DNA of 44,365 nt from Eubacteriales bacterium (GTDB lineage: Bacteria; Bacillota; Clostridia; Lachnospirales; Lachnospiraceae): NCBI GenBank assembly GCA_030524175.1, contig JAUNHC010000041.1:1-44365 (forward strand). Direction: 5' to 3'. The position numbers were made by a program, and so were the translations under genes. Shown piece by piece: positions 5,729 through 21,723 of this stretch; position 1 is the stretch's first letter; each line of letters begins with the position of its first letter. The notes beneath the pieces are model-generated. The model ran no database searches. It saw nothing but the letters and a program-made list of their open reading frames with translations, and was not told the DNA's origin.

Positions 5729-7252
5729 TTATTTATGTGTCTTACGGTAATCTCCGGGAAGCTGCCCTGTAGACTCCTTAAACACCCTGCTGAAATACTT
5801 GGGATCTGAGTACCCAACCTTCTCAGCGATTTCATATAATTTCATCTGTGTTCCAATAAGAAGCTCCTTTGCCTTTGCCATGCGGAAGTTTTTTATGTAG
5901 GTGCTGAAATTCACTCCAAGCTCTTTATGAAACCGCGTTCCCAGATATTCAGGGGTAATATTAAGTTTTGCGGCGATTTCCTCAAGTGTGATCCCGCTCT
6001 GGTAAAATTCCCGGATCAGACTTTGGGCGCGTTTCACTGTCAGGTGTACAGAATCCTCTGTCTCTGTTTTTCCCACAATATCCGTCAAGGTACTCACTGC
6101 ACGGCTCAGCTCCTCCCTTGTTTTCGCCCCCATGATCTGTTCCAGCAAGGTCTGCTGTTCCAGCTTCTCATAATCAAGAAGCCCTGTCTCTTTTGACACA
6201 TTCATCATAGCCCAGAGAAAACGGACATAACATTCTTTGATCTCTTTTGGCTCATACAGTTTATCCTTGTGAAAATAGTCTGCGAACTCTGAAAAATCTT
6301 TCTCCACAGCCTGCATATTACTGGCACAGATATGGATCTTCATCTGATTCTCTATTTCTATCGGATAAATACAAGGACTTGTCTGAATGCTTGTCACCTT
6401 GGGATAGGAAATGAGCACATCATCCCCAAGGGAGATATTCCATTCCATATACCTGCACACCTGCTCGCAGCCTTCCCTTAAATCCTCCAGCAAAAGATCC
6501 CCGTTCCATCCAATGCCCTCATACTTTCTGCTTCTGACCCTGAGTATTTCCTGCTGGAGCCAACGTTCCAGAGATTGGGAATCTGAATAACCATAGAGCA
6601 AAAATACCAGCATATGCTCTCTCTCTTCTTCCAACGCCACATACGATAATTGTTTCCTGGTTTTAAGGAGGCTTTCCATTTCTCTCTTAGCAGATGCCAG
6701 GTTCTCCCGGTAATGTTCTCCCAAATGGAGACAAAGCTCAGCATATCGGCTTTTGCAGGGAATCTTATATCTGTCCTCCAGCAGTTTTTCCATCATTGCA
6801 TCTGCTTTCATATTCCCCCACAAAAGCCCTGCAAAAACCTGCCCGAGATTATCCGCCACCAGTATGTCCCTTGCACTTTCCTGACGTATTTCCTCTTTTA
6901 CATGATGCAGGGCCTCAGAAATATCGCTCACCACAATGGGTTTTAACAGATATTCTTTTACGCCCAGACGCAGCGCCTGGCGTGCATAATCGAACTCAGA
7001 ATATGCGCTGAGTATGACAGCCTTGCTGGTGCAGCCGTCCCTGTAAAGAGCTGTCAGCATCTCCAGCCCATCCATCACGGGCATTTTAATATCTGCAATT
7101 ATTACCTCCGGGTTCACCTTGCACACCAGCTCATACCCTTCCTGACCGTTTTCTGCTGTCCCCACAACTTCATACTCCTGGTCTAATTTCTCGATGAGCC
7201 TGCTCAAACCCTCCCGGATTCTGATTTCATCCTCAATCACTACAATTTTCAT
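5729..7252 (-). CDS. YesN-type response regulator, receiver plus AraC DNA-binding domain
   Basis: 507 residues. The N-terminal receiver (1-120) has the acidic pair IEDE and the phospho-acceptor Asp54 in IIADIKMPVMDG. The KEYLLKPI motif supplies the conserved lysine. A long middle region follows, and two helix-turn-helix units of the AraC family occupy about 405-507 (LEEIAAKLNITPEYLG and YEIAEKVGYSDPKYFSRVFK). It is predicted to activate the transporter operon starting 161 bases downstream. Its start overlaps the kinase gene by 20 bases, so the two are co-transcribed and probably translationally coupled. Confidence 0.93.
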   Translation of the reverse strand: MKIVVIEDEIRIREGLSRLIEKLDQEYEVVGTAENGQEGYELVCKVNPEVIIADIKMPVMDGLEMLTALYRDGCTSKAVILSAYSEFDYARQALRLGVKEYLLKPIVVSDISEALHHVKEEIRQESARDILVADNLGQVFAGLLWGNMKADAMMEKLLEDRYKIPCKSRYAELCLHLGEHYRENLASAKREMESLLKTRKQLSYVALEEEREHMLVFLLYGYSDSQSLERWLQQEILRVRSRKYEGIGWNGDLLLEDLREGCEQVCRYMEWNISLGDDVLISYPKVTSIQTSPCIYPIEIENQMKIHICASNMQAVEKDFSEFADYFHKDKLYEPKEIKECYVRFLWAMMNVSKETGLLDYEKLEQQTLLEQIMGAKTREELSRAVSTLTDIVGKTETEDSVHLTVKRAQSLIREFYQSGITLEEIAAKLNITPEYLGTRFHKELGVNFSTYIKNFRMAKAKELLIGTQMKLYEIAEKVGYSDPKYFSRVFKESTGQLPGDYRKTHK

Positions 7253-9068
7253 TCTTCTGTCCTGCCTCCTGTATTAAGGGAAGCCGGATGTGCACTCTGG
7301 TATATTCTCCCGGCTCACTCTCTATTTTCACATTTCCTTCTGTTCCATAATACATTCTCATCCTGCTGATGGCATTTTCCATACCAATATGATTCCTGTC
7401 ACTACTCTCCGGAAAAATCCCCTGGTTCATCTGGTCTGTCATATTACGTTCAATCCCCTTGCCGTTGTCATATATGACTATCTGCAGATATCCCTTTTCC
7501 AATGTAATTGTCACAGACAAGAAGCAGTCATGTTTAATGCCTTCAAAGCCATGGATAATGGCGTTCTCCACAAAGGGCTGCAGCAGAAGCTTGTGGATTC
7601 TGCAATCCATCGCCTCCTGCTCCACATGGATTTCACAGGAAAATGCATTTTTCATCCTTGTCTGCTGAAGAAAGAGATACTTTTTCAGCCATTCCTGCTC
7701 CTGGCGTACTGTGACAATGCCGTTGCTGTTGTCAATACCATAGCGCAGAATATTAGCCAGAGCGTTGATAGAATTACTGATCTCATACTCTTCCTTGTCA
7801 ATGGCCATCCAGTTGATGGTATCCAGGGTATTGTACAGGAAATGAGGATTGATCTGCGCCTCCAGTGCTGCAATCTCTGCTGCCTTCTGCTTCTCTGCTG
7901 CTTCCTTTTCTTTCTCTATGGAATTTGACAGCCTTCCAAGCATTTTGTTAAACTCTCCGGAAATTGTCTCCACCTCTGAAGGCATTCTACTTTCCGTTTC
8001 CACCCGCACACTCAAATCTCCCTTTCCAGCTGTCTGCATCACCTTTGCCAGATTCTGGAGAGACCCGGTAAGACTACGGATGAGAAAAACAATGATCGCC
8101 GCAAGGGCAGCAAGAGAAACGCTTAAAACTACCATAAGAATTTTCTGCTGGTTTGACAAGCGTTCCATCACCACATTCTGGCTTGACACATTGACAATGT
8201 CCCAATTAAATTTCTCATCATGTACACTGTCCACTGCCACATATTTGTCCTTAAACTGTTCCAGTCCCTCCACAAATTCCTGATAACCTTGCCTGCGCTT
8301 TTTCTCATCTTTATTCCAATGGATCACCGGACTTGTCAGGTAGGTTTCCTCAGGATAGGAGACCATATTTCCCTGGGCATCCACAATAAAATTGTAGCTG
8401 TATTTCACATTTTCCTTGCTGCTGCACACGGAAGCAAGGAGTTCTTCATCCACACTTACCATAACAATGCCCAGCTTCTTATTCACATCACGGTAATCAA
8501 TAATACGGTGTCCCAGGTGAAACAGATAATGTGTTTCCGCACCAAGCTTAATCGCAGGCTGGGTGGAAAAGACATGGGTATCATTGTCTGAAGAAACCTC
8601 ATGATACAATTCTTCACTGGTATACCCGATATTGTCAAGCCAGGAACTTCGGGTACTGGAGCCTGTAAGAAGGTCGTAAAAGACAATCGTTCCGTTTTCC
8701 GTAAGAATGGTTATACTTTTTATGTATTCTTTTGTGTAAAAAAGGCCGTGTAAAGTCCTCCTAAGCTGGTTTTTGCTCACAGACACATTTTCACCGCGGT
8801 TGATCTTATCTATGAGGGACACAATGTCATCGTCTGTATATACCTGGAACAGGATATCCTCATAAGATTCCAGCCAGACATCAAGGCTGCCCCTTGCCTG
8901 CTGAAGATTGGCATGAGTCAGTTCTTTCACATGGTCGGCCACAATCTTAGATGTATTATAGTAAGAAAAAAGGTTCATAATGATCACAGGTATGATCGAC
9001 GTGACCAGAAAAGCAAAAAGCAATCTTGATTTCAGGCTCCATTTTCTTTTCTTTCTCTCTCCCCTCAC
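7233..9068 (-). CDS. YesM-type sensor histidine kinase
   Basis: 611 residues. One membrane segment (about 14-36), an extracellular Cache-like sensor region (about 40-305), a second membrane segment (about 309-331), a HAMP linker, then the His_kinase domain. That domain has the phospho-acceptor His409 in INPHFLYNTLD, followed by an ATPase domain (PFVENAIIHG; DNGKGI). This class senses extracellular sugars or binding-protein complexes and phosphorylates the neighbouring YesN-type regulator. The start is a GTG preceded by AAGGGGG at about 8 bases. A possible promoter (TAGAAT near 9095-9100) lies between the gene and the upstream terminator. Confidence 0.93.
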   Translation of the reverse strand: MRGERKKRKWSLKSRLLFAFLVTSIIPVIIMNLFSYYNTSKIVADHVKELTHANLQQARGSLDVWLESYEDILFQVYTDDDIVSLIDKINRGENVSVSKNQLRRTLHGLFYTKEYIKSITILTENGTIVFYDLLTGSSTRSSWLDNIGYTSEELYHEVSSDNDTHVFSTQPAIKLGAETHYLFHLGHRIIDYRDVNKKLGIVMVSVDEELLASVCSSKENVKYSYNFIVDAQGNMVSYPEETYLTSPVIHWNKDEKKRRQGYQEFVEGLEQFKDKYVAVDSVHDEKFNWDIVNVSSQNVVMERLSNQQKILMVVLSVSLAALAAIIVFLIRSLTGSLQNLAKVMQTAGKGDLSVRVETESRMPSEVETISGEFNKMLGRLSNSIEKEKEAAEKQKAAEIAALEAQINPHFLYNTLDTINWMAIDKEEYEISNSINALANILRYGIDNSNGIVTVRQEQEWLKKYLFLQQTRMKNAFSCEIHVEQEAMDCRIHKLLLQPFVENAIIHGFEGIKHDCFLSVTITLEKGYLQIVIYDNGKGIERNMTDQMNQGIFPESSDRNHIGMENAISRMRMYYGTEGNVKIESEPGEYTRVHIRLPLIQEAGQKNENCSD

Positions 9069-10753: not shown

Positions 10754-12238
10754 TTATCTCCAAGGATTCTCTGTAGGATATCTCACCCCTGCAGGCTGGT
10801 TATATCCGATCTCTTCCACCGGAACGCCGATGTATTTGAATACTTCGTACAGAGCCTTACCGAAGTGTCCGAATGCAACAGCTCCGTGATGAGGATATCC
10901 GCCCTCGATCAGTACATGACGGTAGAAACGTCCCATTTCCGGAATTGCGAATACTCCGATTGCTCCGAAGGAACGTGTTGCAACAGGAAGTACCTCTCCG
11001 TGTGCAATGTATGCCCGCAGCTTATTGTCTGCTGTGCTCTGGAGACGGTAGAAGGTGATGTCTCCAGGTACGATATCTCCTTCCAGTGTTCCCTGTGTCA
11101 CTTCTTCAGGAAGTGCTCTTGCCATGATCATCTGATACTTCATCTCGCAGGAAGACAGTTTGCTGGATGCAGTATTTCCGCAGTGGAATCCCATGAAGGT
11201 GTCATGGTGTGTATAGTCATATTTGCCCTTGATGTCATTTTCATACATATCCTTAGGAACGGTATTGTTGATGTCAAGAAGGGTAACAGTATCATTACTT
11301 ACTACTGTTCCGATGAATTCACTCAGTGCTCCGTAAATATCAACTTCACAGGATACAGGGATTCCCTGGGCTGCAAGGCGGCTGTTTACATAACACGGTA
11401 CGAATCCAAACTGTGTCTGGAAAGCCGGCCAGCATTTTCCGGCGATGGTAACGTATTTACGGTATCCCTTATGCTCCTCAACCCAGTCTTTTAATGTCAG
11501 TTCATACTGAGCAAGTTTTTCCAGGATTTCCGGTTTCTTATTTCCGGCGCCAAGCTCTTCTTCCATCTCTTTCACAACTGCAGGGATTCTCTCATCTCCC
11601 GCATGTTTGTTGAAAGCTTCGAACAGGTCAAGCTCAGAGTTTTCTTCAATTTCAACACCAAGGTTGTACAGCTGTTTGATAGGTGCGTTACATGCAAGGA
11701 AGTTCAGAGGACGAGGTCCAAAGCTGATGATCTTCAGGTTGCTCAATCCTTCAATTGCTTTTGCGATAGGAATGAACTCATGGATCATGTCTGCACATTC
11801 CTCTGCATCACCTACCGGATATTCCGGGATATATGCATTTACATTGCGCAGTTTCAGGTTGTAGCTTGCATTGAGCATACCGCAGTAAGCATCTCCGCGG
11901 CCCTGGATCAGATTGTCACCGGACTCCTCTGCTGCTGCGATGAACATTTTCGGTCCGTCAAAATGTTTTGCTAACAGAGTCTCGGAAATCTCAGGTCCAA
12001 AGTTTCCAAGATAAACTGCAAGGGCATTACATCCGGCATTCTTGATGTCTTCCAGAGCCTGTACCATATGGATTTCGCTTTCCACGATACATACAGGGCA
12101 CTCGTAGATTTCTGCTGCGTCATATTTCTTTGTGTAAGCCTCTACAAGGGCTTTTCTTCTGTTAACAGACAGGCTTTCCGGGAAACAGTCCCTACTCACT
12201 GCAACGATTCCGATTTTAATTTCAGGCATGTTATTCAT
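10754..12238 (-). CDS. L-fucose/L-arabinose isomerase family protein
   Basis: 494 residues, somewhat shorter than true L-fucose isomerase (about 590). The metal ligands expected in that family appear as Glu298 in CEVDIYGAL, Asp322 in LLDINNT and a His in PHHGAVAFGH (450-451). The family interconverts aldoses and ketoses; known members act on L-fucose, D-arabinose or L-arabinose. Its product is presumably the substrate of the XylB-type kinase downstream, which would imply an aldopentose giving xylulose. That is inference, since no classical xylose isomerase is in the window. ATG at 12238 has GGAG 8 bases upstream. Confidence 0.85.
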   Translation of the reverse strand: MNNMPEIKIGIVAVSRDCFPESLSVNRRKALVEAYTKKYDAAEIYECPVCIVESEIHMVQALEDIKNAGCNALAVYLGNFGPEISETLLAKHFDGPKMFIAAAEESGDNLIQGRGDAYCGMLNASYNLKLRNVNAYIPEYPVGDAEECADMIHEFIPIAKAIEGLSNLKIISFGPRPLNFLACNAPIKQLYNLGVEIEENSELDLFEAFNKHAGDERIPAVVKEMEEELGAGNKKPEILEKLAQYELTLKDWVEEHKGYRKYVTIAGKCWPAFQTQFGFVPCYVNSRLAAQGIPVSCEVDIYGALSEFIGTVVSNDTVTLLDINNTVPKDMYENDIKGKYDYTHHDTFMGFHCGNTASSKLSSCEMKYQMIMARALPEEVTQGTLEGDIVPGDITFYRLQSTADNKLRAYIAHGEVLPVATRSFGAIGVFAIPEMGRFYRHVLIEGGYPHHGAVAFGHFGKALYEVFKYIGVPVEEIGYNQPAGVRYPTENPWR

Positions 12239-12282
12239 GATATCTTCTCCTTTTTATATGTTTATTGTTTACGTATCCTATC

Positions 12283-12900
12283 TTAGCTGAGTGTAATATT
12301 CTCTCCCCGCAGACCGTTGAAGGCGCCCTGGATCTCTGCTTCCTCGTGGGCAACCAGCCATTTGTTTTTCGCTGTCATCAGCTTGTCTTCACCCTCTGAT
12401 GCTGTCTGGAAGGTGAGTTCCGTATTGGTTCCCTGGGGGAGCACCACTACACACTGGAAACCGCCGTCATTCACATGGCAGGGAGCATAGTGCAGGGTGG
12501 TGGCATAGACTTCGATGGCTGTGCCTGCCGGTACAAGAAATGCCTCAATTTTTGAGGTGTCATATGTATAATCATCTTCTATATCCTGCTGCCAGCCTAT
12601 CAGCAGCACCAGATCTGTCACTGCCACATTTACCTCAGAGCTTCTGTGATATTCCACCGCATTGAGTTTTTTGTTATGTCCGTTACAGTAGCCTATCTGG
12701 ATAGGCAGGCCCCCATACGCCTTATTCTGCAGATCCTTTGCAATATCCAGTGCCTCCAGCTCTTCTACAGATGGAACATATACCACATCCTCGGGAACGG
12801 GTGTATGCTTCATCTCCCGTAAAAGGCCGCTGAGATCATATCCCCCCAAAACCTTTCCGTATTTGCGGAAAGACGCGTCTGCTACATTCTGAATTTTCAC
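12283..12900 (-). CDS. DUF4867 family protein, cupin-like
   Basis: 205 residues, recognised as the DUF4867 family, which has no established function that I know of. It carries what could be cupin metal-binding motifs: EYHRSSEV in the middle, and HYAPCHVNDGGFQCVVVLP later in a beta-rich region. The Glu/His pattern resembles cupin sugar isomerases and epimerases, so it may act on the same sugar as its neighbours, for example by interconverting anomers or epimers. It is first in the structural operon, with a GTG start at 12900 and AGGAGG 7 bases before it. Confidence 0.8.
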   Translation of the reverse strand: MKIQNVADASFRKYGKVLGGYDLSGLLREMKHTPVPEDVVYVPSVEELEALDIAKDLQNKAYGGLPIQIGYCNGHNKKLNAVEYHRSSEVNVAVTDLVLLIGWQQDIEDDYTYDTSKIEAFLVPAGTAIEVYATTLHYAPCHVNDGGFQCVVVLPQGTNTELTFQTASEGEDKLMTAKNKWLVAHEEAEIQGAFNGLRGENITLS

Positions 12901-12991: not shown

Positions 12992-13870
12992 CTAATCTAT
13001 AGCACTTTTTTGACCTTTTTTAATATCTTCTTTTTCCTTGGCACTCTTCTCCCTGTTCTTCCTCTGCACTGCGCTTGGGAGTATCCCGTAGCGTTTCTGA
13101 AACTCCTTGGAAAAGGCACGGCTGCTGCTGAATCCATGGTCCAGGGCAATCTGGCTGATGGTGTGCCCTGTGTTCAAAAGTTCCCTGTAGGCATAGGCCA
13201 TGCGGATATCCTGGAGATATGACTTGTAATTGACCTTTGCATATTTGCGGAACATACGGGACAGATAAGCCTCAGAATAGCCGAACATGGAAGCCAGCTC
13301 CGACAGCTTTAGATCCTCTCTGTAATGCTCCCGCATGTAAGTGGTTATTTTTGACAAAGCGTCCAGCCGGCGGCTGTGACGGATTTCCTTCTCTCCCGCC
13401 TCTGTGAGACGGTAGCAATTTACCAGATAATAAAGGATTTCATAATAGGAGGCCCGTATTTTGAATTCATAGCCAACCTCCTTGTCTGTGTAAATCTTGT
13501 ACATGTGCTGAATGAGCTGAGTGATACGCCTGTCATTGGGATTGGCACCGCTGGAAAACCGGATAAACCTCTGGGCTGTAAAATAATCCTCAAATTGTTT
13601 CAGAGGGATCTGCAGCACCACTGTCTGATTTTCCTTAGGTGCATGTATGGAGTGTATTTCATTGGAATTTATGATGATCAAGTCACCTGCCTTCAGGGGA
13701 TGCTCCTCCTCGTTTAAATAAAAGGATAAAGCGCCCCCCAGAACTGCAAATATTTCTATTGAAGTGTGCCAGTGCTTCTCCCTCACATAACTTCCCCTTC
13801 CCCCTTCAAACAGGAATAATTTAAAGGGCAGACCTTCATTTGGTATGATCAATTCATGCTGGAATTCCAT
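12992..13870 (-). CDS. AraC family transcriptional regulator with cupin sensor domain
   Basis: 292 residues. The N-terminal half is an AraC-type cupin domain (about 10-110), with KHWHTSIEIFAVLGG and GDLIIINSNEIHSI as its two signature strands. The C-terminal 100 residues hold two helix-turn-helix motifs (LSELASMFGYSEAYLSRMFRK and ISQIALDHGFSSSRAFSKEFQ). It probably binds a sugar and controls the DUF4867-isomerase-xylB operon that begins 91 bases downstream. ATG at 13870 follows GGGAGG by about 8 bases. Confidence 0.9.
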   Translation of the reverse strand: MEFQHELIIPNEGLPFKLFLFEGGRGSYVREKHWHTSIEIFAVLGGALSFYLNEEEHPLKAGDLIIINSNEIHSIHAPKENQTVVLQIPLKQFEDYFTAQRFIRFSSGANPNDRRITQLIQHMYKIYTDKEVGYEFKIRASYYEILYYLVNCYRLTEAGEKEIRHSRRLDALSKITTYMREHYREDLKLSELASMFGYSEAYLSRMFRKYAKVNYKSYLQDIRMAYAYRELLNTGHTISQIALDHGFSSSRAFSKEFQKRYGILPSAVQRKNREKSAKEKEDIKKGQKSAID

Positions 13871-14040: not shown

Positions 14041-14073
14041 AAAAAAAGTTACTGGCCGCTACGGACCAGTAAC
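14041..14073 (-). terminator. Intrinsic terminator of the adaptor/MacB-like operon
   Basis: On the minus strand GTTACTGG pairs with CCAGTAAC, extended inward by CCG/CGG around a tiny loop, and is followed by seven T residues. It lies 28 bases past the stop of the last gene (14101) and shows that no further gene, such as an ATPase, follows in the operon. Confidence 0.92.
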
Positions 14074-14100: not shown

Positions 14101-15375
14101 TTACTGCGTTTCTTCTTGGATTTTATATTCCAGATACTTCATGATAAAGCAGGCCGGTATCAGCATCCACAGAATCCTGTTGTCAGCCAGGCTGACACTG
14201 CTCTGCATATTTACGGCGAAAAACAAATATGTGACCACCATAGAACCTGCTGCCGCAGTCCAAAGAAATACGCTGTTTTTGATCTCAAGCCTACTGAGGG
14301 AAAGACAGCCAAGAAGCCCTGCAGCAATGCTGTACCCTCCTGCCTTCAGGAAATTGCGGTAATCAAACAGGGCCATTTCACTTTTCCCTGTTTTCATGAG
14401 TAAGGAAAGATGCTGCTCTGTACGCTTCCAAAGGCCGGACCAAAAGTCAAAATCAGACCACATGGAAGGGAGCATTGTCCTTGGAATTTTAATATGGATA
14501 TCCAGAATCCAGATACCTGCCCCAGCACTTATAACTGCCCCAAGAAAGAGCAGGGGTACCCCCAAAGCAGGGTTTAAACTGCTTTTTCTCATTCTTCTGA
14601 CCATTTGCAGCCACACGGCAAAATAAATGAGGAAAGGAATTGCATATATCATGAATTGCGCCCATTGATGATATAGATGAAAAGACAGGATGTCACCCTG
14701 GATTCCGGTCTGTTCTGTAAAAATAGCCAAGCCTTCATCCGGCTCTGTTCCTTCGGCTGTTTTTACAGAAAGCTTATCCAGCTCTGCTCCCGGATTTAAG
14801 GAAGCAGTCACCAGCATCACCGGATCTTCACAGTTTAACGTCCCTTGTACCTGGAACTCATCTTCTCCAAGTTCTATTTTCTGTCCAAAACCATCAGCGT
14901 TTCCAAATAATTCTAAAGCAAGTGCAGGACTTATAAGGCAGACTTTCTCTCTGCCCCGTGACGGCACTTTCCCCTCACCTCCGCCCGGAATATATCCTTC
15001 ATCCCCCAAAGTCTCACTGCTGCTGAAAATAATACGTGAATCCCCGCAGACTGTGACCAGAGCGGCGGCAGTGCTCCTGTTCAATTCACGGCTGCTCACA
15101 CTGGTTCCAGGCAATTCTCCCCAAATGACAAATTCCACAGGCTCCATACTGCTCTTACTGGTATCCATCCCACTATTATCAGACTCCTGTCCATTGACTT
15201 TCTGTACGGCCAGCAATTCATATCCTGCCTTAGTATCATATGCATCCTTTAACTGGAGAGTACGGACATTTTCTCTTTCTTCCCCTTCTTTTCCATAGAG
15301 AAATGCCATGGCAATACACAAAAGACAGGCAAATGACAGTATCACACGAAGAATCTGTTCCCGCTGCCTGTTCAT
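14101..15375 (-). CDS. Membrane protein with MacB-like periplasmic core domain, no ATPase
   Basis: 424 residues. One membrane segment near 9-27, an extracytoplasmic domain (about 28-238), then about five more segments (near 240-260, 273-293, 350-370, 373-395, 400-418). The sequence ISPALALELFGNADGFGQKI followed by FQVQGTL matches the end of MacB/FtsX-type core domains. In known systems such permeases work with an ABC ATPase and an adaptor to export peptides or transmit force. Here the adaptor is present (4-base overlap, ATGA) but no ATPase gene is in the operon, and the membrane topology is not the usual 1+3 FtsX arrangement. The function is unknown. Confidence 0.75.
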   Translation of the reverse strand: MNRQREQILRVILSFACLLCIAMAFLYGKEGEERENVRTLQLKDAYDTKAGYELLAVQKVNGQESDNSGMDTSKSSMEPVEFVIWGELPGTSVSSRELNRSTAAALVTVCGDSRIIFSSSETLGDEGYIPGGGEGKVPSRGREKVCLISPALALELFGNADGFGQKIELGEDEFQVQGTLNCEDPVMLVTASLNPGAELDKLSVKTAEGTEPDEGLAIFTEQTGIQGDILSFHLYHQWAQFMIYAIPFLIYFAVWLQMVRRMRKSSLNPALGVPLLFLGAVISAGAGIWILDIHIKIPRTMLPSMWSDFDFWSGLWKRTEQHLSLLMKTGKSEMALFDYRNFLKAGGYSIAAGLLGCLSLSRLEIKNSVFLWTAAAGSMVVTYLFFAVNMQSSVSLADNRILWMLIPACFIMKYLEYKIQEETQ

Positions 15376-17135
15376 TCCTCTTTCAGGCGGACCCTGTCCC
15401 CTGCCTCCACGGTCTTCTCAGAAGAAAGGATCACCAGGTCTGAACCGGATAATGCGCCCTCCTCCAAAGCAGCCATATCTTTTGTCTTTTCCTTGACATT
15501 TACATCAAATCTCTGGGCACGCAGTTCTGTGCCAAGCACACTTTGTACTTCCTGGACCACCAGAATGTAGTATTGCCCTTTATCAAGATGAAGAGCCTGT
15601 AGGGGAAGGGTTGTGGAATATGACATTGACTTTTTCTCCGCCTCTATCACAGCAGATGTCCCCAGTTTCAGCTGATTGTCTGTAATGCGTACCGCAATAT
15701 CAAAAAGCTCCTCGTTCTCAGCATTTTTCCTAATAGAGTCTATGGTAAGACCTTCTATTGCTTTTGAGCCGTCGGAGGGCTTAACTGCAATCTCGTCCCC
15801 CAGGCTTATGTGAGCTGCTTCCTCTGCGGAAATAACAGCTGTCAGCCTGATACCTGCGCTTAAGTCAGCCATTGTCACTGCGCTGGTATCCGAAGTGGGA
15901 TAGCCGGCCTCCACCGCAAGCTTTCTGATCACTCCTGCTCCCGGCGCCCTCACAATGCCTTTCTCCTCTTCAAGAGAAAGATATTTATCCAGTTCCATTG
16001 CCAGCACCTCCCTGTCCAGCTCCATCGTTTTCTGGGTACTGTCCTGCACCTGTGGTTTTCCGGCATCTTCTATTTTCCTGCCGGCCCCTGACAAACTTTC
16101 CTCCTGCTGCTTCAGGGCATCCTGATACGCATTTTTTGCCTGGATATACGCTTCCTCCAGTGCCCGCCTCTGTTCCTGGGTATCCTTACTGTCTAAAGCT
16201 TCCTGTTCCGTCTGGTATTTAGTAAGGGCTATGTCCGCCTCCTCTTTTTCCCTTTTCGCAGCTTCATAGAGTGCTTCTGCTTCATTTAATTCCTTCTTAA
16301 GCTGTTCCACACGGCTGCCTGATATTCCGGCTCCGAATAATTCTTCCGTTTCCGCTGCCTCTGTGGTCTGCTCCGGCATAGCTTGGGAATCTTCAGGCTC
16401 CAACGGCACACTTTCCGTGACAACCATATCAGAAAACATTTGTGTCTCCTCTTCGGCTTCAGCCATCTTTAGCTCTTCCCGCTTCTGCTGAACCTGGGCA
16501 GCTCTGTCCTCCATAAGGGCCGCTTTTTCATGGCAGGTATCTGTCAGCGCCTGTTCCACCGGATCTCCGGAACTGAAAAGCTCATCCCCGGACAAATTGC
16601 TGCCCTGTGCATCAAAATCCTTCAGACGGTCACCGGCCTTTGCCATTGCCTCATAAGCCCTCTGTACTTGTACACCGGAGGTTCCTGAGACACTGTTATA
16701 ATCCTCTGCTGCCCGCCGTTGTTCCACACTCTTCTCGGTCTGTTCCAGTTTGTTTCTGTCCTTAATGTCAGAAATTCCCAAGTCCAGCTTTTCAAGCTCA
16801 TGCTTCTTTAATAAAATTTTTTCCCGGAGATCCGGCATGTCAATTTCAAATAAGGAATCCCCTTTCTGCACCTGGTCTCCCTCTTTTACAAATACACTCT
16901 TCACCCGGATACCAGGCGCTGTGATCACTGCCCGGACCTGATTTTCTTCAACTGTACCGGCCGCTGATACTTTATATGTCAGGCTCCCCTTTCCCGGCTG
17001 CACTACCCCCACATAAGGAGTGAGGATACTTGCTGCCGCTCTGGACAATACTGTGAGAAATACCATTACACACAGAAATCCAGCCAGGGCTTTCAGCGCC
17101 TTCTTTCCATATAGTTCATGAAATTTCTCTGCCAT
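15372..17135 (-). CDS. Membrane fusion protein (HlyD/MacA-like adaptor) with long coiled coil
   Basis: 587 residues. An N-terminal membrane anchor (about 13-37) is followed by two lipoyl half-motifs (about 55-100, ending VKEGDQVQKGDSLFEID, and 393-415, RAPGAGVIRKLAVEAG). Long helical arms lie between (about 100-228 and 270-390), and a beta-barrel and membrane-proximal region completes the C-terminus. The helical hairpin is interrupted by an acidic, Pro/Thr-rich stretch (about 228-268). Such adaptors link an inner-membrane transporter to the outside. Here the partner is the MacB-core-like protein that overlaps it. The gene starts with ATG and a good AGGAGG-like site (GGAGG, 6 bases). Confidence 0.85.
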   Translation of the reverse strand: MAEKFHELYGKKALKALAGFLCVMVFLTVLSRAAASILTPYVGVVQPGKGSLTYKVSAAGTVEENQVRAVITAPGIRVKSVFVKEGDQVQKGDSLFEIDMPDLREKILLKKHELEKLDLGISDIKDRNKLEQTEKSVEQRRAAEDYNSVSGTSGVQVQRAYEAMAKAGDRLKDFDAQGSNLSGDELFSSGDPVEQALTDTCHEKAALMEDRAAQVQQKREELKMAEAEEETQMFSDMVVTESVPLEPEDSQAMPEQTTEAAETEELFGAGISGSRVEQLKKELNEAEALYEAAKREKEEADIALTKYQTEQEALDSKDTQEQRRALEEAYIQAKNAYQDALKQQEESLSGAGRKIEDAGKPQVQDSTQKTMELDREVLAMELDKYLSLEEEKGIVRAPGAGVIRKLAVEAGYPTSDTSAVTMADLSAGIRLTAVISAEEAAHISLGDEIAVKPSDGSKAIEGLTIDSIRKNAENEELFDIAVRITDNQLKLGTSAVIEAEKKSMSYSTTLPLQALHLDKGQYYILVVQEVQSVLGTELRAQRFDVNVKEKTKDMAALEEGALSGSDLVILSSEKTVEAGDRVRLKEE

Positions 17136-17226
17136 AATTTCCTCCGCTCTGTATGTACCGTTTCTGTATATGGCAAGGGGGACTGTCTGTCACGAAGTAA
17201 AACATCACCTATCAATTATCCTTTAT

Positions 17227-19527
17227 CTATTCTGCCAAATACAGATTCACACCGGATACAATGGCTTCTGCCGCTTCATCCACAGTCAGCTCACCCCTCA
17301 GACATTTCATCCCTTCCTGCATTACAGATCTGTTTATCATTTCATCCGTCACAGCCGGGGTGTCCAAAGTTCCGATTATGGTCTTCAGTTTCTGAAAATC
17401 CTCTTTTGAAGGCCAAACCCATTCCAACTCATAGCTGCTTCCATCCATGTCATTCACCGGATTAATCACACCAAGGCGGACAGATTCCGGCTTCTCCTGA
17501 GCCTTGTCAAAAACGGCCTCGTTTACCGGCCAGCCTTCCCCTGAAATTGTCTGACCTCCGGTGAGCAGATAGCGTATAAATTCCTTTGCCGTGTTAGGAT
17601 CTCCGCTTTTTGCACTTACTCCAAAGGTTTTCAGGGGTATGAATACATTCCCTGCCTGGCCGCCGGCTTTGTCAAATCCGCTGTCTCCCATTTTTCTCAT
17701 CATAGATACCATCTGCATCATTCCAGTATTCCCCTTCAGATTTCCCAGTGAGAGCTGCGCATCTGAAAATCCCATTGAGTTTGCTATATATGCGACAGAT
17801 GACATAAACGGTGCCATATCCAAGGCCGTGCTGTCGTCTTCCAACTCGCCTATAAACTCAGTATCAATATTCCCCTGTGCATCCACGATCCTTTTAGCCC
17901 CATGGAGGAACTGTATCAGCTTCTCCTTATCGATGGTACCATCCTGGGATATCCAGGCAGGTGAGGATGTTGATGTGAGAAACTTCAGCATAGAAACCGG
18001 TGTGATATCACCCAGAATATCTTTCGCCTCAGGATATGCTGCGCGCTGGGCCTCTGTCACAGAGACAAGACCTTCAAGATCTGCTGCCTGAGCCAGAAGA
18101 CTTTCCTTTCCATATATAAGAGGTACCGCAAAATATGTAGGTACCGCCCCTATGAACTCTCCCTTTTTGTATGCGTCTGCTATATTCATTAAAATTCCGT
18201 CTGAGGAGTCAACTTCCTCCACCACATCGCTGATGTCCATAAGAATCCCTTTATCAAGATAAGAATCTATGGGCATGCCCTCCAGCATCATGATATCAGG
18301 TCCTTTTCCCGCCATAATATTTGTATTCAATATTTTTAATGCATCGGTCCTGGTCATCCCATCCTCGCCGGTCATTCCAACCTCATAGGCCACTGCCACA
18401 TCTGTATTTGTTTTTCGGTAGGCCGCGATCGCCTGACGGATCCTATAGTCCTCATACATGGAATATATAGTAAGGGTTTTTTCCGGCTGCAGGGCAGCAT
18501 CAGGATCATAGATATATTTAAAGAGCATGGGATGATCATATGGTCTGTCAGACTCGCTGTCCGGATACAAAAGCATTAAAGAATTCTCCCCGAAGGCGGC
18601 ACCTCCCAGGACACTCTCTGACATCATCTGTCCCAGCTGCCCGTTAAATATCTTCTCTATTGCTGTTCCGTCTATCTGCCAGCGGTAGATCCCATCCTGG
18701 CCGATCAGATATAAAGCCTTGCCGTTTTGTTCCGGGATCATGGTAAACCCGTACGAATTACCTGCCCCTTCTTTCACAAACTGCTCCAATATTTCCTGCC
18801 GTCCCAGAGATTCGAAGGTGGTCAGGTCAAATGATTCTATATTTACATCCGTCAATTTAGGTGTCCCGTTGCTGCGCACCTCCATGCGGCTGTCTGTTAT
18901 GTATAATTTATCTCCTGCGGTACAAAATGACTTATCACCTATATATTCCGAATCCTGGGATTCTTCTCCATAAATGTGTTTCACTTCCATAGATTGTATA
19001 TCCAACTGGTAAATCTTCTCCCTTCCCATGCACAAAAAATCTCCGGAATCGGTAAATTCACCGCCCCATATCATCCCCTGTTCCTTATCACTCCCCTGTA
19101 AAAATTCCTCTAGAAGTACAGGTTTTATATTTCCATCAGGCATCATCAGCTTATATGTTTGCCCCGCAGAATAAAATACACTTCCTTTTCCGGAGATTAC
19201 AGCGCTGTTTACCATCCCGCTTTCAATATCTGACCTCATCTCCTGAGGTGTGCTTTTCCACTCTTCCCAGCTTTCTCCCTGATCCGATGAGTCAAAAATA
19301 CCGGTGTCCGAAAGCAGACGTATCTTCCCATCCTCCAATCCACGAAAACTTAGGATTCCTCCTTTGTCAAAGGGTACCTGTTTCTCCACATATCTGCCTT
19401 TTGCTCCTCCCTGTCCGCTGTTGTCCTCCTGCACCTCACGGCCTTTTTCACAGGCAGTAAAAGTAAATGTAAACAGCATTACAAGCAATAAGGACAGCAG
19501 CTGCCAGCCATTTATTATTTTCTTCAT
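17227..19527 (-). CDS. Lipoprotein fusing a propeller-like domain to a solute-binding domain
   Basis: 766 residues. The signal peptide ends in FTAC (Cys26), a lipobox, so this is a surface lipoprotein. Residues about 45-345 are beta-rich, with an Asp-box-like motif (SSDQGESW, 80-87) and repeated short strands typical of a propeller. Residues about 350-760 look like a family 1 extracellular solute-binding protein (TLTIYSMYEDYRIRQAIAAY; GPDIMMLEGMPIDSYLDKG). It is the first gene of the operon with the adaptor and MacB-like protein, with GAGGAGGAG before the ATG. No sugar permease is nearby, so it probably senses or presents a ligand rather than feeding a classical importer. This is inference. 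Confidence 0.8.
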   Translation of the reverse strand: MKKIINGWQLLSLLLVMLFTFTFTACEKGREVQEDNSGQGGAKGRYVEKQVPFDKGGILSFRGLEDGKIRLLSDTGIFDSSDQGESWEEWKSTPQEMRSDIESGMVNSAVISGKGSVFYSAGQTYKLMMPDGNIKPVLLEEFLQGSDKEQGMIWGGEFTDSGDFLCMGREKIYQLDIQSMEVKHIYGEESQDSEYIGDKSFCTAGDKLYITDSRMEVRSNGTPKLTDVNIESFDLTTFESLGRQEILEQFVKEGAGNSYGFTMIPEQNGKALYLIGQDGIYRWQIDGTAIEKIFNGQLGQMMSESVLGGAAFGENSLMLLYPDSESDRPYDHPMLFKYIYDPDAALQPEKTLTIYSMYEDYRIRQAIAAYRKTNTDVAVAYEVGMTGEDGMTRTDALKILNTNIMAGKGPDIMMLEGMPIDSYLDKGILMDISDVVEEVDSSDGILMNIADAYKKGEFIGAVPTYFAVPLIYGKESLLAQAADLEGLVSVTEAQRAAYPEAKDILGDITPVSMLKFLTSTSSPAWISQDGTIDKEKLIQFLHGAKRIVDAQGNIDTEFIGELEDDSTALDMAPFMSSVAYIANSMGFSDAQLSLGNLKGNTGMMQMVSMMRKMGDSGFDKAGGQAGNVFIPLKTFGVSAKSGDPNTAKEFIRYLLTGGQTISGEGWPVNEAVFDKAQEKPESVRLGVINPVNDMDGSSYELEWVWPSKEDFQKLKTIIGTLDTPAVTDEMINRSVMQEGMKCLRGELTVDEAAEAIVSGVNLYLAE

Positions 19528-19647
19528 GAATTCTCCTCCTCGTTGTCTGCATCATGTTTTTTTCGGGCGTCTGTCTGGAAAGGACAGTGTGTGCCCCGGC
19601 TCCCTTTTGACCCCCACATGATACCGTTTTAGTATATCACAGCTTTT

Positions 19648-19691
19648 CTCTACAAAACCTCTAACAAATCTCTATTTTATCTCTAATTTTC
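19648..19691. promoter_or_regulatory. Four 11-bp direct repeats, probable OmpR/PhoB-type binding site
   Basis: CTCTA occurs at 19648, 19659, 19670 and 19681, exactly 11 bases apart, each followed by an AT-rich stretch (for example CTCTAACAAAT, CTCTATTTTAT). A degenerate fifth copy (CTCAG) begins at 19692. Head-to-tail repeats with one-turn spacing are the classic site for dimers of OmpR-family regulators. The array lies directly upstream of the predicted -35 of the OmpR-type regulator gene and within the divergent region of the lipoprotein operon. Confidence 0.75.
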
Positions 19692-19699
19692 CTCAGACA

Positions 19700-19729
19700 G
19701 TGACGGACTGTAAAAAAACATGATATACT
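19700..19729 (+). promoter_or_regulatory. Predicted promoter of the OmpR-type regulator gene
   Basis: GTGACG (19700-19705) and TATACT (19724-19729) are 18 bases apart. The direct-repeat array sits immediately upstream, suggesting autoregulation as a class II-like promoter. Confidence 0.6.
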
Positions 19730-19755
19730 TATGGCCAGAGGAGGAGTTTGTATTT

Positions 19756-20427
19756 ATGAGAATTCTGATTATTGAAGATGATGTACAGCTTTGCCGCTCC
19801 CTTAGCTATCGTTTAAAGAAAGAAGGCATCCAGGCAGATTTGTGCCATGACGGAATACTTGGTTTGGAAACTGCCAGAGAAGGAGTGTATGACCTGATCC
19901 TCCTGGACCGTATGCTGCCCGGACTGTCAGGCACCTCCGTACTTAAGCAGCTCCGCAGAGAGGGCTTCGGTACTCCTGTCATCCTGGTGACGGCTCTGGG
20001 AGAAATACAGGAACGGGTGGAGGGCCTTGACAGCGGTGCTGACGATTATCTGGTAAAACCCATTGCCTTTGAAGAATTGATGGCCAGGATCCGCAGTATC
20101 AGCCGCCGCCCCCAGCACTGGGACCCTGACCCGGTGATCTGTTTTCATGATCTGGCCCTGAATACCCAGACGAAAGTCCTCACCTGCCGTGATATATCCT
20201 GCAGTCTTACCAAGACAGAAGGTGAGCTTCTGGAAATGTTTCTCAAAAATCCCCAAAAGGTACTTGCCCGAAATTTCATAGTGGTAAAAGTGTGGGGGAT
20301 TGATACTGAAATTGAGGACGGAAATCTGGACAACTATATCCATTTCCTCAGACGGCGTCTCAATTCCGTAAAAAGCAAACTTTCCATTAAAACCATTCGA
20401 GGTATCGGCTATCTCCTGGAGGTATAA
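19756..20427 (+). CDS. OmpR/PhoB family response regulator
   Basis: 224 residues from the ATG at 19756, which follows GGAGGAG at suitable spacing. An in-frame ATG at 19720 would lie in the promoter -10 and is unlikely. The receiver has IIEDD, phospho-acceptor Asp51 in LLDRMLPGLSG, and DDYLVKPI. The C-terminal winged helix (about 125-222) includes LTKTEGELLEMFLKNP and the typical ending IKTIRGIGYLLEV. Its kinase follows with no gap. It presumably controls its own operon and the divergent lipoprotein-adaptor operon through the 11-bp repeats. Confidence 0.95.
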   Translation: MRILIIEDDVQLCRSLSYRLKKEGIQADLCHDGILGLETAREGVYDLILLDRMLPGLSGTSVLKQLRREGFGTPVILVTALGEIQERVEGLDSGADDYLVKPIAFEELMARIRSISRRPQHWDPDPVICFHDLALNTQTKVLTCRDISCSLTKTEGELLEMFLKNPQKVLARNFIVVKVWGIDTEIEDGNLDNYIHFLRRRLNSVKSKLSIKTIRGIGYLLEV

Positions 20428-21723
20428 ATGTACAAAAAGCTACATATAAAAATGACTCTTTTCTGCGGCACTGTCACCGGCCTGATACTTCTTCTTATGA
20501 CTCTGGCCGGACTGCTGGCCTTTGAAAATCTTCTCAGCAAAAACGATGCCGCAGTACATGACAAGACAGTCTATGCTCTCCTCTCCAGTCTTGAGGCTGA
20601 GCCTTATATTGACTATGACAAAACAGCAAAAATGGCAGACACCCGCTACTATACCGTTGTACTGTATGACAAATCCATTCCCTATGCCTTGAACCTGGAT
20701 CAGGAAAAAAAAGAGCTTATTGACACAGCACGGGAAATAGCGCTGAAAAACCATGGTTTTAATGTGAACAATCCGCCTATTTTAAGCACAGCTGCCAAAC
20801 AGCTGGAGTTTACTATGAATGTACAAAAAAAGGAATACCTGGCATCCTTTGCCGCTATTCCTCATAAATATGGTACGTTCTCTGCTGTCATTCTCTATTC
20901 CCGCCAACAGCTTCACAGGCAGATCGGCAGGTTAAGGATTTTTTTCCTTATTATTGATGCAGCGGCTCTTGTTCTGCTGTTTACAGCCGCCTGGTTTTAT
21001 ACCGGAAGAATGCTCCTTCCCCTGGAAGAGAACCGCAAAAGGCAGATCCAGTTCGTCGCCTCTGCTTCCCACGAACTCCGTTCCCCACTGGCAGTCCTGC
21101 TCTCAAGCGCTGACGCCCTGGCTGTGGCAGATATGGAAGACCGCCAGGGATTTCACGATATCATTAAATCAGAAGGGCACCGTATGTCCCAGCTCATCAA
21201 TGACATGCTCTCACTGGCCAGTGCAGACAACCAGTCCTGGCCAATGCATCTTGAGAACACACCTTTAGATGAACTTGTTCCTGAACTATATGAAAAATAC
21301 CATTCACTGGCAAATACAAAAGGGCTTGCCCTGAAAATCCAGCTTCCCTCCCCGGACGAAGTTCCCACCGCCCTGTGCGACCGCCAGCGTATCGCACAGG
21401 TAATGGGCATATTCCTGGACAACGCCATCAGCTATACGCCAAAAGGCGGCAGGATAACTCTCGGCCTCAGTCCTGGCAGCGGAGGATGGATACTCTGGGT
21501 TTCCGACACAGGCCCGGGAATCCCTGACGAGCTAAAAAACAGTGTGTTCCAGCGTTTCTTCCGGGCTGACCCTTCCCGGGAGGACAGGCGGCACTTCGGA
21601 CTTGGCTTAAGCATAGCCGCAGAAATCACCCGTCTCCACGGCGGAAAAATATGGGCAGAAGATAATCCCGGAGGCGGCGCTGTATTCTGCCTGCTGCTTC
21701 CGGGGCAGCTGGAGAAAGTCTAG
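20428..21723 (+). CDS. Sensor histidine kinase, partner of the OmpR-type regulator
   Basis: 431 residues. Membrane segments near 10-32 and 170-192 enclose a small extracellular sensor domain. Then come the HisKA domain with His215 in SASHELRSPLAVLL and the ATPase domain with DNAISYTPKGG (N box), DTGPGIPDE, FQRFFRADPSR and HFGLGLSIAAEI. All kinase motifs are intact. The ATG follows the regulator stop directly (TAAATG), so translation is coupled. There is no obvious HAMP domain. It may respond to the state of the lipoprotein/adaptor complex encoded divergently, as Bce-type kinases do with their transporters, but that is speculation. Confidence 0.94.
   Translation: MYKKLHIKMTLFCGTVTGLILLLMTLAGLLAFENLLSKNDAAVHDKTVYALLSSLEAEPYIDYDKTAKMADTRYYTVVLYDKSIPYALNLDQEKKELIDTAREIALKNHGFNVNNPPILSTAAKQLEFTMNVQKKEYLASFAAIPHKYGTFSAVILYSRQQLHRQIGRLRIFFLIIDAAALVLLFTAAWFYTGRMLLPLEENRKRQIQFVASASHELRSPLAVLLSSADALAVADMEDRQGFHDIIKSEGHRMSQLINDMLSLASADNQSWPMHLENTPLDELVPELYEKYHSLANTKGLALKIQLPSPDEVPTALCDRQRIAQVMGIFLDNAISYTPKGGRITLGLSPGSGGWILWVSDTGPGIPDELKNSVFQRFFRADPSREDRRHFGLGLSIAAEITRLHGGKIWAEDNPGGGAVFCLLLPGQLEKV

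Follow-up and report, generated by a model that had tools for sequence, protein, structure and literature searches.

The operon and its two-component system

A stretch of 44,365 nucleotides (contig JAUNHC010000041.1, assembly GCA_030524175.1; hereafter the window) from a gut bacterium of the Eubacteriales, family Lachnospiraceae, carries a three-gene operon and a divergently oriented two-component system (TCS). On the minus strand the operon runs from a lipoprotein gene (LP, 17227..19527) through a membrane-fusion adaptor gene (MFP, 15372..17135) to the gene for a MacB-core membrane protein (PERM, 14101..15375), and closes with a Rho-independent terminator at 14041..14073 on the same strand, formed by a 10-bp stem (14073-14048) followed by a T run. 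The plus strand encodes an OmpR/PhoB-type response regulator (RR, 19756..20427, counted from the ATG at 19756; the list of open reading frames (ORFs) starts it at 19720) and a sensor histidine kinase (HK, 20428..21723) with HisKA and HATPase_c domains, in which two transmembrane (TM) segments flank, as judged by eye, an extracytoplasmic part of ~140 residues. A preliminary description of this DNA had reported three co-directional genes (a lipoprotein with a solute-binding domain, an adaptor and a MacB-core protein), a terminator ending their operon, a divergent OmpR-type regulator-kinase pair and the lack of an ABC ATPase in the operon. Domain matches confirm the three genes, the other features are borne out as well, and no ABC ATPase gene is found in the window's operon.

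The LP product (lipoprotein cysteine, Cys26) is mostly beta and comprises a propeller-like half (residues ~43-345) and a carbohydrate-binding solute-binding protein (SBP) half (~349-766); its solute-binding domain is of the family-1 type, as in the SBPs of CUT1 importers. The adaptor (587 aa, HlyD/RND_mfp type) has an N-terminal TM segment and a long middle part that looks helical by eye. Adaptor length varies widely in the ORFs of relatives, from 442 to 800 residues (L046, L041 and L059 among them). Between LP and MFP lies a gap of 91 bp (17136..17226, minus strand), the place of two permease genes in relatives, in which a profile scan found no permease match. Upstream of LP, the sequence TATACT (19631..19636, minus strand), picked by eye with the geometry taken from relatives, is the likely -10 element of the operon promoter, and four direct CTCTA repeats with an 11-bp period (at 19648, 19659, 19670 and 19681; 19648..19691, no strand assigned) are probable regulator boxes.

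In the structural model of PERM (424 aa; sides of the membrane assigned by eye), TM1 (residues 2-29) is followed by a MacB-type extracellular domain (37-230), TM2 (233-265), a 3-residue turn, TM3 (269-291), a loop with the motif WSDFDFW, a helix (309-328), TM4 (333-360), TM5 (368-388) and TM6 (400-423). The best structural matches are 5xu1 and 5f9q, and the model predicts a MacB fold that includes the MacB-type extracellular domain. The MacB_PCD profile is matched by 19 of 32 members of the PERM family (best 4.7e-12) and, below threshold, by the window PERM (E 0.0011); the FtsX profile (PF02687) is matched by none of the 32 at E 0.01 and by nothing on the window's contig. The TM2-TM3 loop has a median length of 12 in PERM (measurable in 33 of 36 rows; 21-29 in three rows) versus 23 in nine of nine MacB-type rows, and is shortened where MacB carries its ATPase-coupling helix. 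The module points to a MacB fold that works with no ATPase. At L210 (958-2235) a different protein of 426 residues carries a MacB-type motif, looks unlike ordinary MacB permeases and perhaps represents a second family of ATPase-less MacB-core proteins.

Composition of the module in relatives

In relatives, a profile scan of loci finds a usual module of LP, permease 1, permease 2, MFP and PERM beside an OmpR-type RR and HK. The loci are a non-random sample gathered through PERM, LP or genus searches, and 101 are distinct (113 MFP loci less 12 identical or contained copies). Of 250 genomes from the same family 23 contain a PERM relative, and of 64 from the window's genus 31 contain an LP relative; both counts include the window genome itself. 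Within the named genome collection 186 stretches encode LP relatives; 78 were kept as LP-seeded loci, and 53 have enough flank after removal of 25 with short flanks. The module permeases measure ~285 residues, and the two examined are BPD_transp_1 proteins (Pfam). Both MalF/MalG-type permeases are present in 95 of the 101 distinct loci, and most retain the EAA loop (79/96 and 88/99), the site at which ATPases dock on permeases. The six remaining loci are the window, Blautia schinkii DSM 10518 (the nearest relative, LP 68-69% identical), L138 and L154, with permease matches split over frames, L180, which starts within permease 1 at a contig end, and L041, which lacks permease 1 and also LP and the TCS. 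The combination of LP, MFP and PERM without a permease match is found among the 101 in the window and B. schinkii alone. PERM is absent from 23 of the 101 rows, but three of these (L135, L180 and L194) are uninformative because their sequence stops within 123 bp of MFP; in the MFP tree, a clade of 22 rows has MFP without PERM, two of these rows ending within 123 bp of MFP and two having incomplete permease matches. In one relative a gene for a small protein (L052:8107-8817) stands between MFP and PERM; by motif we take its product to resemble D-alanyl-D-alanine carboxypeptidases, a possible link to the cell wall.

None of the 101 loci has an ABC ATPase gene, recognised by Walker A plus signature pattern, between the ends of the LP-to-PERM span; together with the two permeases in 95 of them, this argues that the usual module is an importer taking its ATPase from elsewhere. 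MalK-type ATPases lie within 9 kb in five of the 101 loci (one checked by Pfam) and in none of the 53 LP-seeded loci with enough flank; those nearest on the same strand that give a MalK-type match, at L042, L049 and L126, are ATPases of importers. Two of these ATPase-bearing loci have an extra small lipoprotein gene between LP and MFP (L042:12687-13322, with sub-threshold DUF5666/DUF6550 matches, and L049:2484-2999), and in both PERM comes before the permeases. No MalK-type ATPase is found at the window locus; MalK/MsmK-like genes stand elsewhere in its genome, the best (54%) at C95 with no sugar permease beside it. MsmK is described as an ATPase shared among carbohydrate ABC importers (PMC4519317).

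These counts bear on the comparison with MacAB pumps and Bce modules from which the preliminary description had started, and under which the operon might have been a degenerate MacAB exporter whose relatives keep an ATPase gene; in 101 of 101 loci the span is free of one, and by the criterion of that description itself the operon is not such an exporter. The module is better described as a carbohydrate importer with MacA/MacB-like accessories, the part missing from the window being the permease pair, and the MacAB framing is partly supported. Neighbouring ATPases weaken the case against a MacAB exporter: none lies inside the module, but a MacB-type ATPase lies outside it, within 9 kb, in 21 of the 101 loci, mostly of the window's genus. 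These 21 ATPases are close to the ATPase of a MacAB-like gene run beside the second module of the window genome (L109:12314-17691, contig 26), in which an adaptor, an ATPase, a second adaptor and a MacB-type protein stand beside that module's kinase gene. In L109, the one locus looked at, the MacB-type ATPase belongs to this separate run. The module may have a MacAB-like system as a conserved neighbour, and in the 21 loci the nearby ATPase is a possible partner of PERM.

The second option offered by the preliminary description, a MacAB-type exporter borrowing a LolD/MacB-type ATPase from elsewhere, accords with the presence of MFP and the MacB fold and with 63 FtsX-domain matches in the window genome, by which partner ATPases probably exist; the 21 loci raise its odds slightly. 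It is nevertheless very improbable: PERM is a poor fit for a borrowed ATPase, with a TM2-TM3 loop about half the MacB length and no FtsX match in its family, no module of the 101 has an internal ABC ATPase, nearly all relatives have importer permeases, and the 21 loci include neither the window nor its nearest relatives L127-L130.

Loss of the permeases

Both the MFP tree and the RR+HK tree (quick trees, with SH-aLRT support only) pair the window with B. schinkii at full support, inside permease-bearing clades; given this placement, the pattern is best explained by a single loss of the permeases. Two other permease pairs in the window have clearly lower scores (258-298 bits) and lie more than 10 kb away. 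Permease 1 has no close match in either genome other than the one in a paralogous, complete module (C26, L043/L109, in the window genome; C1, L115, in B. schinkii). The five remaining proteins are 55-91% identical between the two species with dN/dS of 0.07-0.14, a rough measure given the high dS (0.8-3.3) and with no value from YN00 for PERM; the identity and the low ratios suggest that the rest of the module is probably kept by selection. The adaptors of the two permease-less species differ in length, 587 residues in the window versus 498 in L127 (12384-13877). Compared with most other PERMs, those of the window's clade (L127-L130, L150, L167) have two additional hydrophobic segments at the C terminus, and these seem to predate the permease loss, since permease-bearing L128-L130 share them.

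Accidental loss of the permeases, with the rest of the importer now on its way out, would be one account of this state. Permeases may break elsewhere too, as the matches of L138 and L154, split over two frames by frameshift or sequencing error, allow. Decay is nonetheless unlikely, because each of the five proteins has an open, nearly full-length reading frame in both species, at the identity and dN/dS given above, the terminator and boxes are present, and the LP-MFP gap is without a permease match.

Probable regulation and a proposed role in sensing

The most stable pair of the module is the lipoprotein and the TCS. In the 53 LP-seeded loci, RR and HK are both present in 47, so that the TCS opposite the operon is indeed conserved; MFP is found in 43, both permeases in 41 and PERM in 30. 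Across the 101 distinct loci RR is present in 77 and HK in 75, counts lowered by contig and region ends. Seven of the 53 hold RR, HK and LP only (a locus-level count), and L099, of the window's genus, is a further such locus; the genes downstream in two loci of this kind (L142 and L188) appear unrelated by eye. One permease pair is accompanied by two or three LP genes in several loci, and by four in L164. In L109 a short LP gene between two full ones (7167-8189) matches the profile (762 positions) over no more than its first 339 and would encode the propeller half without the sugar-binding half. The stability of the pair fits a three-component sensor such as CuaDSR of Ruminiclostridium cellulolyticum, in which the SBP binds the extracellular part of the kinase and contributes to the detection of cellobiose at very low levels (PMC10384115).

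The boxes are shared widely. Among 92 intergenic regions between RR and LP or RR and a permease, 81 are distinct, and CTCTA-N6-CTCTA occurs in 67 of these, against a mean of 0.12 and a maximum of 1 in 100 Markov-shuffled sets; at the other periods from 7 to 23 the pair is found in no more than 5. In the 66 regions of the geometry profile the boxes keep an almost constant distance from an element resembling TATnnT in the promoter on the LP side; its three best-kept letters are 91-92% conserved, and the window is off by one base. The window genome (5.95 Mb) has five matches to CTCTAAN5CTCTAA, all placed at module genes. One precedes an LP gene on C85, where the 12.8 kb covered, ending 2.1 kb past LP, contain no other module gene. 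CTCTAN6CTCTAA lies at module genes in seven of eight matches in this genome and in five of six in B. schinkii. All seven loci reduced to RR, HK and LP keep boxes before at least one LP gene. A direct repeat with an 11-bp period is the geometry of OmpR/PhoB-family sites; with this geometry and the boxes placed at the LP promoter, RR is likely to control LP directly. Two results count against the sensor proposed below: the boxes are absent from 14 of the 81 regions, and reversed controls also find matches in the genomes (3 versus 5 for CTCTAAN5CTCTAA; 11 and 7 versus 8 and 6 for CTCTAN6CTCTAA), so that the placement of the matches, not their number, is the evidence.

Since the TCS goes with LP and probable boxes stand at the LP promoter, sensing is the best reading. 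The locus derives from a module for carbohydrate ABC import that is widespread in the Lachnospiraceae, and it lacks the permeases. At a probability of roughly 0.55 it is proposed to encode a sugar sensor of three components together with a complex of MacA/MacB origin that is free of an ATPase. The regulator would activate LP, MFP and PERM through the CTCTA boxes, and the lipoprotein would capture an oligosaccharide and report it to the kinase, as CuaD does to CuaS. The adaptor and the MacB-fold protein would form an ATPase-free extracellular assembly of MacA/MacB descent, keeping or placing the lipoprotein close to the kinase or within the cell-wall space. A signalling complex had been suggested in the preliminary description, and that part is supported; its relay through adaptor and membrane protein, and force sensing, are speculative. 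LP and kinase occur without MFP or PERM in seven of the 53 LP-seeded loci.

Several further findings speak against a sensor. The dN/dS values are rough, the permease-less state is known from two genomes, both of these have a complete paralogous module so that the parts could serve import in trans, and one metagenome-assembled genome (MAG), Mgla_MAG_20-bin_8, has both a permease locus (L152) and an RR-LP-LP locus (L195). Moreover, one clade has MFP with permeases and without PERM, which suggests that MFP works with importers, and MFP is not known to have a sensing role.

The main rival to a sensor is import in trans, in which LP, with MFP and PERM, would feed the C26 permease pair and a shared MsmK-type ATPase, giving one importer a second substrate. 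Beyond the paralogous modules and the MAG with both kinds of locus, it gains from the multiple LP genes per permease pair, from the same boxes at the window locus and the paralogous locus, and from the MsmK-like ATPase gene at C95 without a sugar permease beside it. The window locus retains its own RR and HK, its LP is only ~30% identical to the C26 LPs, which makes docking on the same permeases doubtful, and retention of a separate MFP and PERM would go unexplained; on balance import in trans is rather unlikely.

For the accessory pair within the proposed sensor, a tentative suggestion is that MFP and PERM are a de-energised MacA-MacB pair, now an ATPase-free extracellular scaffold or relay. 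A cell-wall-spanning tube would present the propeller-SBP lipoprotein and pass ligand capture via PERM to the kinase, having first served importers and having become purely sensory in the window lineage after the permease loss.

Beside the operon, genes for a fucose-isomerase-like protein (PF02952, with a sub-threshold match to sulfoquinovose isomerase) and a DUF4867 protein adjoin each other (10754-12900) and, with an AraC-type regulator gene (12992-13870), probably form a separate sugar-catabolism unit.

Comparison with known systems

The module is common in gut Lachnospiraceae and joins parts of sugar importers, MacA/MacB export and kinase sensing that are usually kept apart; its naturally reduced forms, lacking PERM, lacking the permeases or consisting of kinase, regulator and lipoprotein alone, let the role of each part be tested in existing species. 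Literature searches judged by titles and the starts of abstracts, with subscription literature mostly outside them, returned no paper describing it. Bce-type modules likewise encode a MacB-type membrane protein with a TCS, but BceB has ten TM segments and works with the ATPase BceA (PMC5985334); the window locus has no BceA-type ATPase with a ten-TM BceB, and adds an SBP and an MFP. MacAB-like systems such as Spr0693-0694-0695 (PMC5768738) and YknWXYZ (PMC4887032) share an adaptor and a TM protein with a MacB-type extracellular domain, whereas the window lacks an ATPase and an FtsX match, and its PERM combines a short TM2-TM3 loop with a TM3-TM4 loop that measures ~51 residues and bears a WSDF motif, and has two extra TM segments. 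Closer are the CUT1/MsmK importers (PMC4519317), with an SBP lipoprotein and, in relatives of the window locus, two MalF/MalG-type permeases mostly without an ATPase of their own; the module differs from them by MFP, PERM and a dedicated OmpR-type TCS, and no pair of BPD_transp_1 permeases is found in the operon of the window or of B. schinkii. CuaDSR and XylFII-LytS resemble the locus in having a sugar-binding SBP encoded beside a TCS that controls sugar-import genes (PMC10384115). The regulator of CuaDSR is of the YesN/AraC type versus the OmpR/PhoB type in the window, where the SBP also has a propeller-like extra half and is joined by an MFP and a MacB-core protein.
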